Source of the DNA: a virus
Reading direction: 5' to 3' (one strand)
Virus record (IMG/VR): IMGVR_UViG_3300035698_004194
Span: 1-42,745 of that record
DNA: 42,745 bases
The notes under the pieces: model-generated
What the model was told of the DNA's origin: nothing
Seen by the model: only the letters and a program-made list of their open reading frames with translations
Database searches by the model: none
In this document: in pieces, positions 1,863 to 37,426 of the stretch
Numbering within the stretch: the first letter of the stretch is position 1
Layout of the letters: each line of letters starts with the position of its first letter
Position numbers and translations under genes: made by a program

Positions 1863-2369
1863 ATGGCAAAAATAAAAAAAAAGGTTGAAAAGTTAAAACT
1901 TGGGCGGCCAACTGATTATAGGCCAGAATATTGTCGAAAATTGATTGAGTTTTTTGATATTGAGCCAGTGGATGAGCGGAAAATCGACCATTTTGACGCA
2001 AAAGGGAATGTTGTGTGGACTGATATTAAAATGTTACCTCAGCGGATACCCTCAATTCGCAAATTTGCCAAATCCATAGGTGTCCATTTTGACACGATCT
2101 ATGAATGGGTAAAAGTACATAAAGAATTTTCCGACTCTTTTACGCATGCGCAGGCAATTCGAAAAGAATTATTGATCGACATGGGCATGATGGGCCTGTC
2201 ACCCCCTGCCTCATTTAAATTCGTGGCCGTCAATATGACGGACATGAGGGACCAAGTTATTGTCGACGATGGCCGTGAGGATGTCGACAAGGTAAATGCT
2301 GCGAGAAACACAGTCAATAGCCGATTCAAACGTCTCGAGGATGTCTATGGCGACTCAGGCAGAGGTTGA
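1863..2369 (+). CDS. terS: Terminase small subunit
   Basis: A 168-residue protein that recognises phage DNA for packaging and feeds it to the large subunit. It has a lysine-rich start (residues 3-12), the GRPTDYRPEYC motif common in these proteins, and a helix-turn-helix around S-I-R-K-F-A-K-S-I-G-V-H-F-D-T-I-Y-E-W at about 62-80. The middle and C-terminal parts (F-T-H-A-Q-A, then N-M-T-D-M-R-D-Q) match small terminase subunits of the type that precede GGNR-type large subunits. The end overlaps terL by 23 nt, typical of translational coupling. The ribosome binding site is weak (AAAG), and ATG 1863 is the only reasonable start. Confidence 0.85.
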   Translation: MAKIKKKVEKLKLGRPTDYRPEYCRKLIEFFDIEPVDERKIDHFDAKGNVVWTDIKMLPQRIPSIRKFAKSIGVHFDTIYEWVKVHKEFSDSFTHAQAIRKELLIDMGMMGLSPPASFKFVAVNMTDMRDQVIVDDGREDVDKVNAARNTVNSRFKRLEDVYGDSGRG

Positions 2370-4629
2370 CCCCCCGGAATCCACCACAGATGAGCTGGAT
2401 GAGTACGGAGACCACATAGCCGGCTACATACCCCTACCCGCAGCCTACCATTACCATATGAGCCTGGCAAAATTCCGGTGGCTCTATGGTGGAAATCGTT
2501 GCCTTGGTGGGGATCAGTTGATGTATGATCCCGTGGCAGGCACTCACACGCGCATAGATCGACTACAGTGTGAGTCCTATGTGTTGGCCTGGGATGGGAG
2601 TAAGCTGGTAGCGGCTTGTGCAGGGCAGCCGTTCAAAAAACCAGCCGAACAGCTTTACACGGTCACGTTTGCTGACGGGCAGCGGCTCGTTTGCTCGGCC
2701 AATCATCGCGTTTTGTGCCGCGACGGATGGCGCTCTCTCTCTCAACTCCGGCCTGGATGCGTTGTTTTCCGTCCTCCGTCCAGTTCGGGCAACGGCCATG
2801 CAATTCATCACGTAGATGATCAGCATTACACTGGTATAAATGCAGATTCTCTGTCCGGTTATCGCCCCGGACGCCGTTTATGTGGTGCACAACCTCTCCA
2901 GGACATAGGGGCCGACCAAGTTTTTCCTCCATCACAAGTATATGCTCCAAGACATAGATACAACGTGGCTTGTGCGCTCGTGGATGGCCAGGGCGGTACA
3001 CATGGACATAGCCATTTTCGTCAACATGCCTTCCGCCCTTCCAATCCGGATGGCCTGGGCCTGATCGTGGGCCTGATCGTTGACACTTTATCCCATGTTT
3101 TTTACAGACTTTTTGAATCAGCTTGGCGTCAACTCCGAGTTGCTGTCCAACCCATGCTTGAGTTTTGCCCTCGTCTATCCATTGTCGGATTCGGTCAACA
3201 GGGTAGTCATAACACCGTTTTGGGCGGCCTCTCCAACGATTTGGGATCTTTCGGGCAAGCTTCATGTGGTTCCTTTCGATTTAAAGCAGCTTTAACGGCT
3301 GACACTATAGCGATAACCGATGTGCAAGTTAATAGGGTCGACAATGTTTGGGATATCGAGGTTCCTGGCTATGGCAATTATCTTGCCGCCGGTGTGATAA
3401 ATCACAACAGTTCGAAAACTCACTCTGCCATGATGGACTTGGCCATGTTCGCCCTGGGCCTGCATCCTCTTCGAGCTACGCCGAAACGGGCTGTGATCTG
3501 GGCCTGCACCGTCAACTGGGACATGGTCGGCGAAATCCTGTGGGGTGAGAAATTGGCAGAGATGATACCCAGAGACCGCATCAGGCGTATGACCTGGCAC
3601 AACAAGGGCCAGAACATCCCCAGCAAGATTTGGTTGACCAATGGCTCGAGGATCATATTCAAAGCATTTGAGCAGGGCAGGGAGGCATTTCAGGGCAAAT
3701 CTATTGATGCCTGTTACTGTGACGAGCAGGCCAAAGGCGACTCTAAGGGCATTTTCCAGGAAATCCAAGCCCGTCTAGTCGACTCTGGTGGCTTCTACTC
3801 TCACTCGATGACGCCGCTTATTCCCTGCCCGTGGATGGAAGAGAGAATCAGCAACCCCACGGCTTCAGACGCTTTTTTTTATGCCAATCTCAACGCCAAC
3901 CGGATCAGCCGTGGCGGATACATTCAGGACAGCGAAATCGATCTGATGATTGATGACTGGGCAGAGGAAGTGCAGGAAACACGTATCAAGGGCCTGTTTG
4001 CATCGTTTGAGGGTGTCGTGTACAGCTCGTTTGCACGCAAGACCCACGTAATACCGAGTTTCCCCATTCCGCTGGCCTGGGAGCGGTACAGAGGAATTGA
4101 TTTCGGATTCTCCAACCCGTTCGCTTGTGTCTGGATGGCACGCAGTCCGGACAACGAATGGCACGTCTACCGAGAGCACCATCACCGGGGGAAATTGCTC
4201 AAGTGGCATGCTGAGCAGATCATTGCAGGGTCCGGGGCCAGGATGATCAAGCACACGACCAAGATCGACCATTTCGAGTCAATTGGTGGCGACAAGTACG
4301 TGTTCACCTGTGCCGACCATGACGCCCAGGATGCTGCTGAGCTGGCAGCCTTGGGGGTCAAGAGCACACCGGCACGGAAAAACGTCCTCCTGGGCATCGA
4401 AGCGGTGCAGGCCACCATGAAGATCCGTAGCAACGGAAAGCCTCGGTTTTTCGTCCATGACTGTTGCCCCGTGACCATTACGCAGCACGCCGGGTATAGG
4501 TGGCCAGATGGCACTGACAGAGGCGATCCTAAAGAGATGCCCCTAAAAAAGAATGATCATACTTGTGATCCGGTCAGATATGTAATATATGCGGTGGAAG
4601 GCAAAGGGCTTTTTAGCAATGTGCTTTAA
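2347..4629 (+). CDS. terL: Terminase large subunit precursor, interrupted by an intein
   Basis: A 760-codon frame that would give a 457-residue packaging ATPase-nuclease after removal of a 303-residue intein. ATG 2347 has GAGG at 6 nt spacing; the in-frame ATG 2341 directly abuts it. The extein halves join to G-G-N-R-S-S-K-T, the Walker A loop of phage terminases. Walker B is A-C-Y-C-D-E-Q near 3708-3728. The C-terminal RNase H-like nuclease shows G-I-D-F-G-F-S-N-P near 4096, A-D-H-D-A-Q-D near 4312 and N-D-H-T-C-D-P near 4552, giving the expected acidic residues. The gene can work only if the intein splices, because the insertion destroys the ATP-binding loop. Confidence 0.93.
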   Translation: MATQAEVDPPESTTDELDEYGDHIAGYIPLPAAYHYHMSLAKFRWLYGGNRCLGGDQLMYDPVAGTHTRIDRLQCESYVLAWDGSKLVAACAGQPFKKPAEQLYTVTFADGQRLVCSANHRVLCRDGWRSLSQLRPGCVVFRPPSSSGNGHAIHHVDDQHYTGINADSLSGYRPGRRLCGAQPLQDIGADQVFPPSQVYAPRHRYNVACALVDGQGGTHGHSHFRQHAFRPSNPDGLGLIVGLIVDTLSHVFYRLFESAWRQLRVAVQPMLEFCPRLSIVGFGQQGSHNTVLGGLSNDLGSFGQASCGSFRFKAALTADTIAITDVQVNRVDNVWDIEVPGYGNYLAAGVINHNSSKTHSAMMDLAMFALGLHPLRATPKRAVIWACTVNWDMVGEILWGEKLAEMIPRDRIRRMTWHNKGQNIPSKIWLTNGSRIIFKAFEQGREAFQGKSIDACYCDEQAKGDSKGIFQEIQARLVDSGGFYSHSMTPLIPCPWMEERISNPTASDAFFYANLNANRISRGGYIQDSEIDLMIDDWAEEVQETRIKGLFASFEGVVYSSFARKTHVIPSFPIPLAWERYRGIDFGFSNPFACVWMARSPDNEWHVYREHHHRGKLLKWHAEQIIAGSGARMIKHTTKIDHFESIGGDKYVFTCADHDAQDAAELAALGVKSTPARKNVLLGIEAVQATMKIRSNGKPRFFVHDCCPVTITQHAGYRWPDGTDRGDPKEMPLKKNDHTCDPVRYVIYAVEGKGLFSNVL
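2500..3408 (+). mobile_element. Intein in the TerL Walker A loop
   Basis: A 303-residue insert starts with Cys (CLGGDQLMYD, block A) and ends in I-N-H-N followed by Ser of the extein (block G). Block B is at residues 53-72 (YTVTFADGQRLVCSANHRVL), with S-A-N-H in place of the usual T-x-x-H. Block F is V-W-D-I-E-V with G-N-Y-L-A-A-G just before the end. All residues for the standard Cys1/Asn/+1 Ser splicing route are present. Between blocks B and F the sense frame has no LAGLIDADG or HNH motif; that span is the complement of an antisense HNH gene. The sense frame is nevertheless free of stops, as splicing requires. Boundaries are read from the motifs and from the restored GGNRSSKT loop. Confidence 0.9.
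2663..3265 (-). CDS. HNH homing endonuclease encoded antisense inside the intein
   Basis: A 200-residue protein read against terL and wholly inside the intein. Residues 23-60 form a helix-turn-helix (E-G-K-T-Q-A-W-V-G-Q-Q-L-G-V). Next comes H-P-D-W-K-G-G with an E-N-G-Y-V-H-V-Y strand, then the HNH core: E-H-I-L-V-M-E with His108, V-V-H-H-I-N-G with His127/His128, and G-D-N-R-T-E-N-L with Asn136 and Asn140. This is the HNH_3-type arrangement of free-standing homing endonucleases. The ATG at 3265 is preceded by GAAAGGAACCAC, the same ribosome binding site type as other genes here, which argues that it is translated separately. The C-terminal tail (about 150-200) overlaps the intein N-terminal splicing region, including block B. 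It probably cuts the intein-free terL allele. Confidence 0.9.
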   Translation of the reverse strand: MKLARKIPNRWRGRPKRCYDYPVDRIRQWIDEGKTQAWVGQQLGVDAKLIQKVCKKHGIKCQRSGPRSGPGHPDWKGGRHVDENGYVHVYRPGHPRAHKPRCIYVLEHILVMEEKLGRPLCPGEVVHHINGVRGDNRTENLHLYQCNADHLRDELHGRCPNWTEDGKQRIQAGVERESAIRRGTKRDDWPSKRAAARQQT

Positions 4630-4645: not shown

Positions 4646-5065
4646 ATGACCAACCGAAACGTAGTTCTCATCATTATTGCGATCTTCTTGACGCTGTTCT
4701 GTGTAATTCACCTGGATGCTATGTTTGGCAGTAAGTTCGTAAAAAAATGCTGGCGTAAACCAACGCATGTTGTTTCCGTATCTTTTGATTTGGGAGACAG
4801 TTTATGCAAAGCTGGTGTATGGCCTGGGTCTCATAGCGAGTGTATGGCCTGGGCATTAGGTGATGATTGGGAAAATTTAAAACTTCCAGGCTATCCTAAT
4901 GCCTGGAATGCGAGACACAAAAATATTGGTTTTGTGGATGACTTTGACGATCCAGTAAGAGGGACAATGTTGATGGGTTATTCGTGGCTTGCCATGCGAG
5001 AGCGCAGAAAAGCACCAACACTGCATTGGATAGACGACATCCCCAAACTTGAGGTGACCCCATGA
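4646..5065 (+). CDS. Hypothetical membrane-anchored protein, 139 aa
   Basis: It starts at MTNRNVVLII behind GAAAGGGCAATC. One N-terminal hydrophobic helix (about residues 5-22) is followed by a mostly polar domain rich in Trp, Cys and Asp, with W-A-L-G-D-D-W and H-W-I-D-D near the end. I do not recognise the family. It is the first of a run of small tightly packed genes lodged between terL and portal, and it overlaps the next gene by ATGA, suggesting coupled translation. Confidence 0.65.
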   Translation: MTNRNVVLIIIAIFLTLFCVIHLDAMFGSKFVKKCWRKPTHVVSVSFDLGDSLCKAGVWPGSHSECMAWALGDDWENLKLPGYPNAWNARHKNIGFVDDFDDPVRGTMLMGYSWLAMRERRKAPTLHWIDDIPKLEVTP

Positions 5066-5589
5066 ACATTCGATACGCATTTTACAGGGCAGGCAAAGAC
5101 GGTCATTGGGTTGATAATGCAATTTCAATTTACACCGGCCTATTCAACCCTGGCACAGGTCCGTATAGCCATGTCGAGACCTGGTGGCCTGGCAATAACG
5201 GCAATTTTAAAAAAGGCGAATGCTTCACGAGCACTATGCGTGGCGATTTAAATGGGACTGTGATCCGTCGAGCATCCGAAGTGTTCACACATCCAGAACG
5301 ATGGGATGTGTGCGAGATTGAGGTTGCTAATAAGTTGGTGTACGCGGCTGGAGCAAAAGCAATATGGGCAGCTCAAAAGAATAAAGGCTATGACAAACCG
5401 GCTTTGTCTAGTTTTTTCCTACCCTGGCGATCCGGCTCTAAAGACAAAGACATCTGTTCGGAGGTATGCAAGCGATTTGCTATGTGGTGTCATATCGTTG
5501 ACAATGACCACATAGAATCACCCCGGAGATTCAGCAGGACATTGACGCGTTTGGGATATCAGATCTATCCTTTGACTGAGGTGATATAG
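5062..5589 (+). CDS. Permuted papain-fold (NlpC/P60, YiiX-like) amidase
   Basis: A 175-residue protein with the order expected of circularly permuted NlpC/P60 enzymes: a His first (Y-S-H-V-E near residues 35-39) and the nucleophile Cys later, in D-I-C-S-E-V-C near 133-139. Between them lie a C-F-T-S-T strand and an R-W-D-V-C-E-I-E strand, usual for YiiX/YebB-type proteins. Such enzymes hydrolyse amide or ester bonds in peptidoglycan peptides or lipids. No signal peptide is visible. It could help in lysis or entry, or modify a host target; the sequence does not decide. The start overlaps the previous stop (ATGA). Confidence 0.6.
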   Translation: MNIRYAFYRAGKDGHWVDNAISIYTGLFNPGTGPYSHVETWWPGNNGNFKKGECFTSTMRGDLNGTVIRRASEVFTHPERWDVCEIEVANKLVYAAGAKAIWAAQKNKGYDKPALSSFFLPWRSGSKDKDICSEVCKRFAMWCHIVDNDHIESPRRFSRTLTRLGYQIYPLTEVI

Positions 5590-34592: not shown

Positions 34593-36557
34593 ATGAGAAC
34601 CATAAAAATAATATCACTATTAATCGAGAACTTTAAGGCCGTCAAGTCGTTCAGTCAAGACTTTGATGGCCACAATGCAAGTATCCACGGAGAGACAGGT
34701 GCGGGAAAGACCTCCGTTCAAGATTCCATCATATGGCTCTGGACTGATAAGAATTCAGAAGGCCGTTCGGCATCGGGAAAGTCTCACTTTGATATTCGCC
34801 CAATCTACACCACAGGCCCGAATATGGGAGAGTATGTACCCGATGTTATAACCGCAGTGCAAGCTGTATACCTCTTTGACGGTGACACCTACACTATGCG
34901 TAAGGAGCATAAGGAAAACATCGTCAAGGGCAAGCTCAAGGGCTATGTGACTGAACGCTGGATTGACGAGGTTCCGTACACTGCCACAGCGTTTGAAAAG
35001 TGGATCGAAGAGAGGATTCCCGCAAGTGTGTTCAAAAAACTCACAGACCTGAAACATTTCAACGAGACTCTGAAGTGGCAAGATAGACGATTAGAACTCA
35101 CATCGCTTGCCCCGGACGTGAAGCAGCCAGATGGTTTTGAGGATCTGGACAAGGCCAAGGAAGGCCGTACTATTGAGCAGTACAGGACGGTGCTGTCAAC
35201 GCGCAAGACTAAGGCTGAGAAGGATCAGGCCAGCAACGTCACACGCATTGATGAGAACCAGGGCAAACTGGCTGAATACGCTGAGGCTGGCGACTTCAAA
35301 GTAATGCAAGAGCAACGGGATACGTGCAAGGCCGAACTGAAAATTATAGATGAGGACAGAAAACACTTTCTGGCTCAAGAGCAGGAACGACAAGGCAAGC
35401 TTGATGGCATCAATGCTGTCAAGGGCAAACTGTCTGCCCGAGAGGTGGAATTGGTAAAAGATATGACCGGCATACAAGATCTTGTGGCTGAGAAATCAGA
35501 CTTGGTCTTGGCAGTACAGAAGTTAAAGGACGTCGACACGTTCAATCAAACTGCGATTATGCGTAAAAACAACGAACTTGCTATTTTCAAAGAATCGCTC
35601 CAAGAAAGGACTGAGGCGCTATCAAAGCTGGCAGGTGAGAAAAAAGAAGTCATGGCTCATAAAGACTCTCTGGTGTGTTACGCCTGCGGCCAAAGTCTTC
35701 CTGGTAACAAGGTTAAGGAGTTAGATAACAAGAAGCAGGCCAGACTTGCTGAGATCAATGAGAAGGGCCGCAACGCCCGAACAAACGTCAACCTCGCGTC
35801 TGCTGAGGTTCAGAATGTTGAGACTGACTTGATCCAGTTTACTTTGAAGGCTAATGCGGCTAAGGAGGAAACTGTTCGACAGATCGCCCTGTCTGATGTA
35901 CGCACGGCAGAGATCAACGAACTAATCAACAACAACAAAACCACGAAACCGGAAGACGATGAAGCCTGGGTCACGATCAGTCACGAGCTGGAAGCTCTGA
36001 AAGCTGATCTAGGTACTTCTTTATCTGAAAGGCTCCAGGGCCTGGACGAAGCACGAACAGGCAAGAGTGAGGACCTGGACACGCTCAACGCATCGTTGGC
36101 TAAGAAGGACTCCATTAAAGAGATTAAGGACCGCATCAAAGAATTAAAAAAGGCGAACCAGGGCCTTGGCCAAATCCTGGCTGATACTCAGAAGATGCTG
36201 GACCGCATCGACGAATACAAGACCCGAGAGAGTGTTTTGATTGAGCAGGCCGTTAATGGCAAGTTTAAGCTGGTCACGTGGAAGCTGTTCGGCTCATTTT
36301 TGAACGGTAACGCCGACCCGTGCTGTGTGGCCCTGCTGAAAGGTAAACCTTATACGGAGTGCTCCACGGGTGAAAAGATCATGATAAACAACGACATCGC
36401 CAATACCATGGCAGAGTTTGAGGGTTACAACATACCTCGCTTCATCGATGATGTTGTTTTGGTTACACATGCCATTGATACAGATTGCCAGACCATTCGT
36501 TTGGTGACTGATGAAAATCAAAATAAGTTGAAAGTTGTCATTGAAAAGGATGTGTAA
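34593..36557 (+). CDS. SbcC/Rad50-like ATPase
   Basis: A 654-residue SMC-type ATPase. Walker A is G-E-T-G-A-G-K-T-S at residues 33-41. Long heptad-rich helices span ~170-360 and 375-560, separated by a zinc-hook motif C-Y-A-C-G near 361. The C-terminal head shows C-S-T-G-E-K near 590 as the signature motif, followed by R-F-I-D-D-V-V-L-V as an atypical Walker B. Cellular SbcC is about 1000 residues, so this is a short phage version. No SbcD nuclease gene is adjacent; the RecT next door suggests it acts in phage recombination or end processing. It starts 20 nt after a terminator. Confidence 0.75.
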   Translation: MRTIKIISLLIENFKAVKSFSQDFDGHNASIHGETGAGKTSVQDSIIWLWTDKNSEGRSASGKSHFDIRPIYTTGPNMGEYVPDVITAVQAVYLFDGDTYTMRKEHKENIVKGKLKGYVTERWIDEVPYTATAFEKWIEERIPASVFKKLTDLKHFNETLKWQDRRLELTSLAPDVKQPDGFEDLDKAKEGRTIEQYRTVLSTRKTKAEKDQASNVTRIDENQGKLAEYAEAGDFKVMQEQRDTCKAELKIIDEDRKHFLAQEQERQGKLDGINAVKGKLSAREVELVKDMTGIQDLVAEKSDLVLAVQKLKDVDTFNQTAIMRKNNELAIFKESLQERTEALSKLAGEKKEVMAHKDSLVCYACGQSLPGNKVKELDNKKQARLAEINEKGRNARTNVNLASAEVQNVETDLIQFTLKANAAKEETVRQIALSDVRTAEINELINNNKTTKPEDDEAWVTISHELEALKADLGTSLSERLQGLDEARTGKSEDLDTLNASLAKKDSIKEIKDRIKELKKANQGLGQILADTQKMLDRIDEYKTRESVLIEQAVNGKFKLVTWKLFGSFLNGNADPCCVALLKGKPYTECSTGEKIMINNDIANTMAEFEGYNIPRFIDDVVLVTHAIDTDCQTIRLVTDENQNKLKVVIEKDV

Positions 36558-36559
36558 TC

Positions 36560-37426
36560 ATGGCAGAAACGCAATTAGAAGTAATCAAAAAGACGTTCGT
36601 TTCATCAAAGGCAATCAAAACCTTTGAGGATGCTTTACCGAATTGCACAGGAGAGCACGCGGTCGCTGTGGCTAAACGGTTCGCGAAGATGTGCTGTACA
36701 GCGATCACAAACAACCCATCACTCCAGAGATGTTCCGTGTCAAGTCTTATAAGGTCGGCTAGTGTATCGGCAAGCCTGGACTTGGACATTGACGTGAGAG
36801 GTTTGGCGTACCTTGTACCGTACAAAAACAATGGAGTCATGGAAGCACAGTTTCAAATTGGCTACCTAGGCCTTATGGAATTGGCGTATCGTTCTGGCAA
36901 GGTCACAAACATATCAGCTCATTGCATCTACGAGAGCGAAAAAAAGCAAGTGACAGTCACCCGAGAAGATGGTCGTTGGTCTGTGGTGCATCCGTTTTCT
37001 TGGGATATGCCTACCGGTGAAATAGTTGCCGTGTACGCCACGGCCTACATTAAAGATCATGGGCCTGTAACTTCGGTTTTACGTGCTGCTGAAGTCGAGA
37101 AATTACGCAAGAGGTCGAAGGCTCCCAATAGTCCGGCTTGGACCAATGACAAGCCTGCCATGTACAAGAAGACAGTCGTTAGGCAATTGGCTAAGTTTTT
37201 ACCTAAGTCAATCACTGAAGACTTATCAAAAGGGGCCGCTATGGACGAAATAGAATCGTTCGATAATGCGCAGGGCAATGCCCAAGAACATATCAATCAA
37301 ACAATGGGCTCTGAAATTATCGACGCTGAGCCAATTGTTGACGAAGCCACTGGAGAGTTAAGATCCCCTGACGCTGTGCCTGATCCTAACGCTGTGCCTT
37401 CTGATGAAGACTGGGACAAAGACTAA
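36560..37426 (+). CDS. recT: RecT single-strand annealing recombinase
   Basis: A 288-residue RecT-family protein that coats single-stranded DNA and anneals complementary strands. Recognisable parts are the L-I-R-S-A-S-V-S-A-S-L-D-L-D segment, Y-L-V-P-Y-K-N-N-G with F-Q-I-G-Y-L-G-L-M-E-L-A-Y-R-S-G-K, then D-K-P-A-M-Y-K-K-T-V-V-R-Q-L-A-K-F-L-P. The acidic C-terminal ~50 residues are typical of the family. No obvious RecE exonuclease accompanies it; the SbcC-like or MBL-fold neighbour may supply processing. The stop overlaps the next ATG (TAATG). Confidence 0.88.
   Translation: MAETQLEVIKKTFVSSKAIKTFEDALPNCTGEHAVAVAKRFAKMCCTAITNNPSLQRCSVSSLIRSASVSASLDLDIDVRGLAYLVPYKNNGVMEAQFQIGYLGLMELAYRSGKVTNISAHCIYESEKKQVTVTREDGRWSVVHPFSWDMPTGEIVAVYATAYIKDHGPVTSVLRAAEVEKLRKRSKAPNSPAWTNDKPAMYKKTVVRQLAKFLPKSITEDLSKGAAMDEIESFDNAQGNAQEHINQTMGSEIIDAEPIVDEATGELRSPDAVPDPNAVPSDEDWDKD

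Follow-up and report, generated by a model that had tools for sequence, protein, structure and literature searches.

An intein in a phage large terminase gene with a putative homing endonuclease gene on the opposite strand

Results

The terL locus

The window analysed here is the whole 42,745-nt stretch of viral DNA in IMG/VR record IMGVR_UViG_3300035698_004194. It carries a large terminase gene (terL) interrupted by an intein, and an HNH endonuclease gene lies inside the intein on the opposite strand (Table 1). Both had been located in an initial annotation made from the sequence alone, and the coordinates given there for the intein and the antisense HNH gene are all correct. The true start of terL is uncertain, with candidate ATG codons at 2296, 2341 and 2347.

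Table 1. Features of the terL locus in the window (positions count from the first letter of the window)
Feature	Position	Strand	Evidence
terL ORF (large terminase) with intein	2296..4629	+	Terminase_6N, Terminase_6C, phrog_2, phrog_5653
Intein, 303 aa, C1 to N303	2500..3408	+	PF14890 E 7e-10; empty site in L233; Foldseek mini-inteins
N-terminal half of splicing (Hint) domain, residues 1-95	2500..2784	+	AlphaFold2 pLDDT about 93-98
Sense linker, residues 96-267, largely opposite the HNH gene	2785..3300	+	predicted mostly disordered; no protein-level constraint
C-terminal Hint half, residues 268-303, penultimate His302, Asn303, +1 Ser	3301..3408	+	pLDDT about 96-98; TIGR01443
Antisense HNH endonuclease gene, 200 aa, ATG at 3265	2663..3265	-	HNH_3 E 2.7e-9; phrog_20891 E 3e-27
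HNH catalytic motif, residues 127-151	2813..2887	-	intact motif; key residues invariant in 47 relatives
Helix-turn-helix-like N-terminal region of HNH protein, residues 23-56	3098..3199	-	weak HTH_38; three model helices; profile match to 8vd6
Shine-Dalgarno-like AAAGGA upstream of HNH ATG	3271..3276	-	
Candidate sigma-70-like promoter TTAACT-17-TATAGT, 38 nt upstream of HNH ATG	3304..3332	-	site enriched here in relatives

The intein interrupts the Walker A loop of TerL, with YGGNR before and SSKTHSA after the insertion, and extends from Cys1 (2500-2502) to Asn303 (3406-3408), followed by Ser at the +1 position. The residues that we required of an intein are all present (C1, H69, H302, N303 and +1 Ser); the block-B His69 is encoded at 2704-2706, and both C1 and the block-B His are kept in relatives. 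The initial annotation had noted splicing blocks at both ends and no endonuclease in the sense frame, and the profile searches bear this out. The sense frame matches Pfam Intein_splicing (E = 7e-10) and, above cut-off, the TIGR01443 intein C-terminus, while no in-frame endonuclease family was matched there. A profile of the intein compared with solved inteins matches at its two ends only. In the AlphaFold2 model residues 1-95 and 268-303 have pLDDT > 90, and the residues in between are mostly at about 45-55, with one predicted helix (residues 183-216). Foldseek matched this model to NpuDnaB (4o1r, E = 5e-8), to the RecA intein (TMt about 0.83-0.88) and to Ssp DnaB. For this model and that of the HNH protein, the input alignments left out two phage-collection rows.

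Several other classifications of the locus were ruled out. A canonical full-length mobile intein is excluded by the missing in-frame endonuclease match and the poorly ordered sense linker, and a split intein or fractured gene by the single continuous ORF at 2296-4629. A search of the whole window for group I introns and other Rfam RNAs found none at the gathering threshold, and the intron hypothesis was dropped on that ground.

The HNH gene occupies the place where usual inteins hold their in-frame endonuclease. Its product had been described as a complete HNH endonuclease of 200 codons, and the matches to HNH_3 and phrog_20891 (Table 1) together with an intact motif (HHINGVRGDNRTENLHLYQCNADH) agree with that description. 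The AlphaFold2 model (mean pLDDT 86.7) consists of a helical, HTH-like N-terminus, which probably binds DNA, and an HNH core. A Foldseek search with this model gave no significant match, I-HmuI ranking 10th with E = 0.75. Where GC content is moderate to high, genes often have long antisense ORFs, which leaves room for the view that the intein is an ordinary one and the antisense ORF a chance by-product of codon composition. We give this view practically no weight, because an ORF that matches HNH_3 and PHROG profiles at such E-values and is conserved in dozens of phages with its motif intact is not what chance would supply; it is refuted by homology and by the selection described below.

Relatives among viral contigs

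A search of viral contigs with the whole sense intein returned no matches, as the linker is not conserved as a protein. The antisense HNH did find relatives, 244 of them when a small alignment was used as the query, and 80 of the 244 were retrieved. Ninety strong-scoring HNH loci are antisense within a long ORF, and only one other HNH match above the cut-off (L097) is not. Removal of near-duplicates left 60 loci, in all of which the HNH motif is present and the gene is antisense in one and the same reading phase. In 59 of the 60 the sequence directly downstream encodes the C-terminal block of an intein, for example VPxxHNYxAxGxxxHHN[ST]. The alignment of 58 host ORFs has Cys1 in 57, the block-B His in 58, the penultimate His in 57, and the terminal Asn and a Ser, Thr or Cys at +1 in all 58. 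Pfam Intein_splicing is matched by 49 of these ORFs, terminase domains are widespread among them, and the insertion is in the TerL P-loop, nearly always at GGNR^SGKT or GNRxGK^T. Judged from these comparisons, antisense HNH genes inside inteins are a class and not a coincidence. The single phase suggests that the antisense insertion of an HNH gene had few origins; the HNH tree does not settle the matter and leaves a single origin of the group possible but undemonstrated.

Genome contigs yielded no relatives in a profile search with a closer HNH alignment, and a scan for the intein signature gave seven matches there, three with an antisense HNH. Two Acidobacteria MAG contigs (L245:3-4466 and L247:3-2747) have an antisense-HNH intein in an SNF2-like helicase, again in the P-loop, which extends the class beyond TerL. 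One viral locus (L002:1-2241, minus strand), a close relative of L003, lacks the N-terminal half of the intein including block B and keeps the HNH gene and the C-terminal block, which is either decay to a non-splicing form or an assembly error.

Sampling by the intein signature

To sample inteins irrespective of the HNH gene, viral contigs were scanned with a DNA pattern for the intein end and the P-loop (HNYxxxGxxxHN[ST]GK). Among the matches listed, 57 of 80 stretches contain an antisense HNH. The 61 non-redundant stretches among the matches listed comprise 41 with an antisense HNH, 1 with an antisense remnant, 7 mini-inteins, 5 other full-size inteins, 1 with a same-strand, out-of-frame HNH, and 6 cut by contig ends; most of the 5 other full-size inteins have in-frame endonucleases, judged by eye. 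The antisense arrangement is thus present in 41 of 55 untruncated non-redundant stretches among the matches listed. Since the pattern detects a single kind of intein C-terminus, the fraction holds for that kind.

A possible refutation raised at the outset was that homologous inteins might have the antisense frame broken by stops. This did not happen: in the 58 antisense cases among the matches listed (the 57 and the remnant), the HNH is full-length in one open frame in 52 and partial in 6, and the partial copies are in-frame truncations without a single break by a stop. The partial HNH copies and the mini-inteins fit a cycle of homing and decay, as far as sequence comparison can tell.

Two further observations concern other inteins. 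One true intein (L146:283-1494, plus strand; VNHINNIRTDNRIENLEWVTKAENLQH) has a same-strand, out-of-frame HNH, a hidden endonuclease of the ShiLan kind (see below). Three P-loop inteins (L140, L153 and L181) have an in-frame linker that by eye resembles a PD-(D/E)XK-type nuclease (PDFVVN...YEIKG) and looks like a different endonuclease in a similar site.

Selection on the two reading frames

The codons of the HNH gene and the intein are paired in such a way that HNH position 1 falls opposite intein position 1, position 3 opposite position 2, and position 2 opposite position 3. Substitutions at HNH positions 1, 2 and 3, summed over close pairs, number 255, 171 and 551. The compared pairs share ancestry and the summed counts are therefore not independent events; the individual close pairs agree with them. 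In 11 pairs of close relatives dN/dS is 0.09-0.41 in the HNH frame and 0.8-3.1 when the same DNA is read as intein. This mirror image is as expected with a constrained HNH and an unconstrained linker. We rejected positive selection in the sense linker as an explanation of the values above 1, because, in this phase, a wobble change in the HNH gene always alters the second position of an intein codon. With an HNH motif in all 60 loci, an HNH_3 match and dN/dS of this order, the gene fulfils the sequence criterion that we set for an HNH homing endonuclease, namely the motif together with evidence of selection.

The sense frame is nevertheless kept open. Synonymous shuffling of the HNH codons predicts 302 intein-frame stops over the 60 loci compared to none seen, and 4.1 stops opposite the HNH gene of the window, again compared to none (P about 0.001). 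The pattern of codon changes and the absence of sense stops together indicate that both the HNH protein and the openness of the sense frame are maintained.

Conceivably the element was mobile only in the past, and the antisense HNH is by now a dead gene whose frame stays open on account of the sense frame; five inteins with only HNH fragments (L122, L127, L132, L147 and L184) are what such a history would leave. We regard this as very improbable, given that the gene is intact in 52 of 58 cases among the matches listed and that its dN/dS is low between close relatives, with changes mostly at HNH wobble positions, which are second positions of intein codons.

Expression signals

Promoter-like sites with at least 9 of 12 consensus matches occur in 35% of loci compared with 2% of random same-strand windows. 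Part of this excess is due to constraint on the intein protein; under the stricter control of synonymous recoding of intein codons, 7.3 of the 60 loci are expected to have such a site and 21 do. The candidate in the window has only 9 of the 12 matches, and the site of L085 matches the consensus exactly. In 34 of 60 loci a candidate start is preceded by a Shine-Dalgarno-like site, compared with 7.7% of ATGs; this count is generous, since every in-frame candidate close to the start of the gene was admitted.

Empty sites and divergence

Besides the splicing residues and the Hint fold, both present here, we required of an intein an in-frame insertion with a precise empty homologue, and two genomes meet this. 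A relative of the window with 74% TerL identity (L233) has an exact empty site. The cultured Pseudoalteromonas phage PHS3 contains the element, with the HNH annotated and TerL annotated as truncated, and its sibling phage AL, about 95% identical, has an uninterrupted site, the difference being a clean 900-bp insertion. In eight Pectobacterium and Dickeya phages the HNH match adjoins the terL C-extein, and the full sequence of one of them, phage Ymer, confirms the antisense arrangement. Mean identity across loci is 42% for the HNH, 33% for the Hint domain and 20% for the TerL C-extein. An HNH that is better conserved than TerL is what one would expect, at the level of sequence, if the element passes from one TerL lineage to another. 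For cutting of the empty allele and super-Mendelian inheritance the evidence is indirect only, consisting of the empty sites and the presence of the element in divergent TerL lineages. The divergence of the intein and that of the HNH are correlated (Spearman 0.54).

These data bear on the possibility that the HNH protein is a free-standing endonuclease that merely shelters in the intein and cuts elsewhere, in a neighbouring gene or a competitor genome. There are no data on its cleavage site, and free-standing HNH genes of related sequence exist. We nonetheless consider this improbable, since the HNH keeps one relative position and phase across all the inteins, the site is always the conserved P-loop, HNH and intein diverge together, and precise empty sites are known.

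Discussion

These results lead us to infer that the element is, very probably, a mobile intein of split-strand design, in which the homing endonuclease has an antisense transcription unit to itself; that it splices, expresses the antisense gene, cuts and homes is in each case an inference. On the sense strand a mini-intein would excise itself from TerL post-translationally, and at the usual endonuclease position lies the reversed HNH gene, which would be served by a promoter and a ribosome-binding site of its own. The enzyme made from the antisense transcript would cut intein-free terL of a co-infecting phage at the conserved Walker A DNA, and repair off the intein-bearing copy would install the whole element of about 0.9 kb. 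The sense linker would then be a passenger that need only avoid stops and leave the splicing fold intact. Such an element may have originated when an HNH gene inserted backwards into a mini-intein, once or a few times. Expression of the HNH would be independent of terL translation, and in-frame deletions could drop it while splicing survives. In the window, SbcC-like and RecT-like genes are adjacent (34593-37426, plus strand), and their recombination functions could serve homing repair.

In the usual description of inteins a single polypeptide does the splicing and, in mobile inteins, the cutting as well. In the present element splicing and homing would be shared out between two separate proteins, whose coding sequences are on opposite strands and overlap by about 600 nt. 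The initial annotation had proposed just this for a single ~0.9 kb element, and it appears to be so, with purifying selection on the HNH and both activities inferred; that such inteins are widespread had not been recognised there. We found no published description of inteins with antisense endonucleases, in a search that did not extend to preprints and covered subscription papers sparsely. Gosselin et al. are said to have described a "non-canonical architecture" of actinobacteriophage inteins.

Canonical mobile inteins (the PI-SceI type and in-frame HNH inteins) share with the present element the Hint fold, C1, the block-B His, the terminal HN, the +1 Ser, Thr or Cys, the place of the endonuclease and a conserved ATPase P-loop as target. 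In contrast to them, the endonuclease here is on the opposite strand, outside the spliced polypeptide, with its own ORF and start signals, and the sense linker is not an endonuclease. A similar nuclease core and helical DNA-binding parts are found in I-HmuI and other HNH homing endonucleases; the structural match to I-HmuI is not significant, and the location antisense to an intein is different.

With reservations about literature coverage, the nearest described cases are the ShiLan insert and the antisense endonuclease genes of group I introns. The ShiLan domain (PMC11855218, Genes 2025) is an HNH hidden within the DNA methylase of a phage. Like the present element it resides in a phage, stays open in the host frame and has insert-free homologues, but its HNH lies on the strand of the host gene, out of frame with it, and neither a splicing domain nor a ribosome-binding site is detectable. 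The element in the window is excluded from this type by its antisense HNH and its intein domain. The Didymium L2066 group I intron contains an antisense homing endonuclease gene (PMC9548176), and introns of this type are alike in carrying a separately transcribed antisense gene within a self-splicing element. There, however, splicing is by RNA, the setting is eukaryotic rDNA and the host strand is free of the need for an open frame, whereas here splicing is by protein, in a phage, and both strands are coding.

It seems probable, with less assurance than for the element itself, that these inteins form an unrecognised major class, which we would call antisense-endonuclease inteins. Such a bidirectional element would consist of a sense mini-intein and, overlapping it, an antisense HNH transcription unit under a promoter of its own, would be the most frequent arrangement in phage TerL Walker A inteins of this type, and would uncouple homing from host-gene expression, the HNH being losable without loss of splicing. 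As the majority form among phage TerL P-loop inteins of this kind, it would represent a pair of sense and antisense genes that is deeply conserved and whose persistence has an evident reason. It would also explain TerL genes annotated as truncated or "hypothetical", and could be a source of natural mini-inteins and of new HNH endonucleases with a conserved packaging motif as their target.

One DNA methylase ORF (N6_N4_Mtase; L013:4123-5721, minus strand) has an antisense HNH_3 gene at 4797-5378 (plus strand) and no intein domain, and is an antisense counterpart of the ShiLan insert.

Phages PHS3 (L032) and AL (L242) are a ready pair for a direct test of homing. A second segment of PHS3, about 957 bp long and with a putative DNA methylase gene, is also missing in AL, where the aligned ends at its site overlap by 14 bp.
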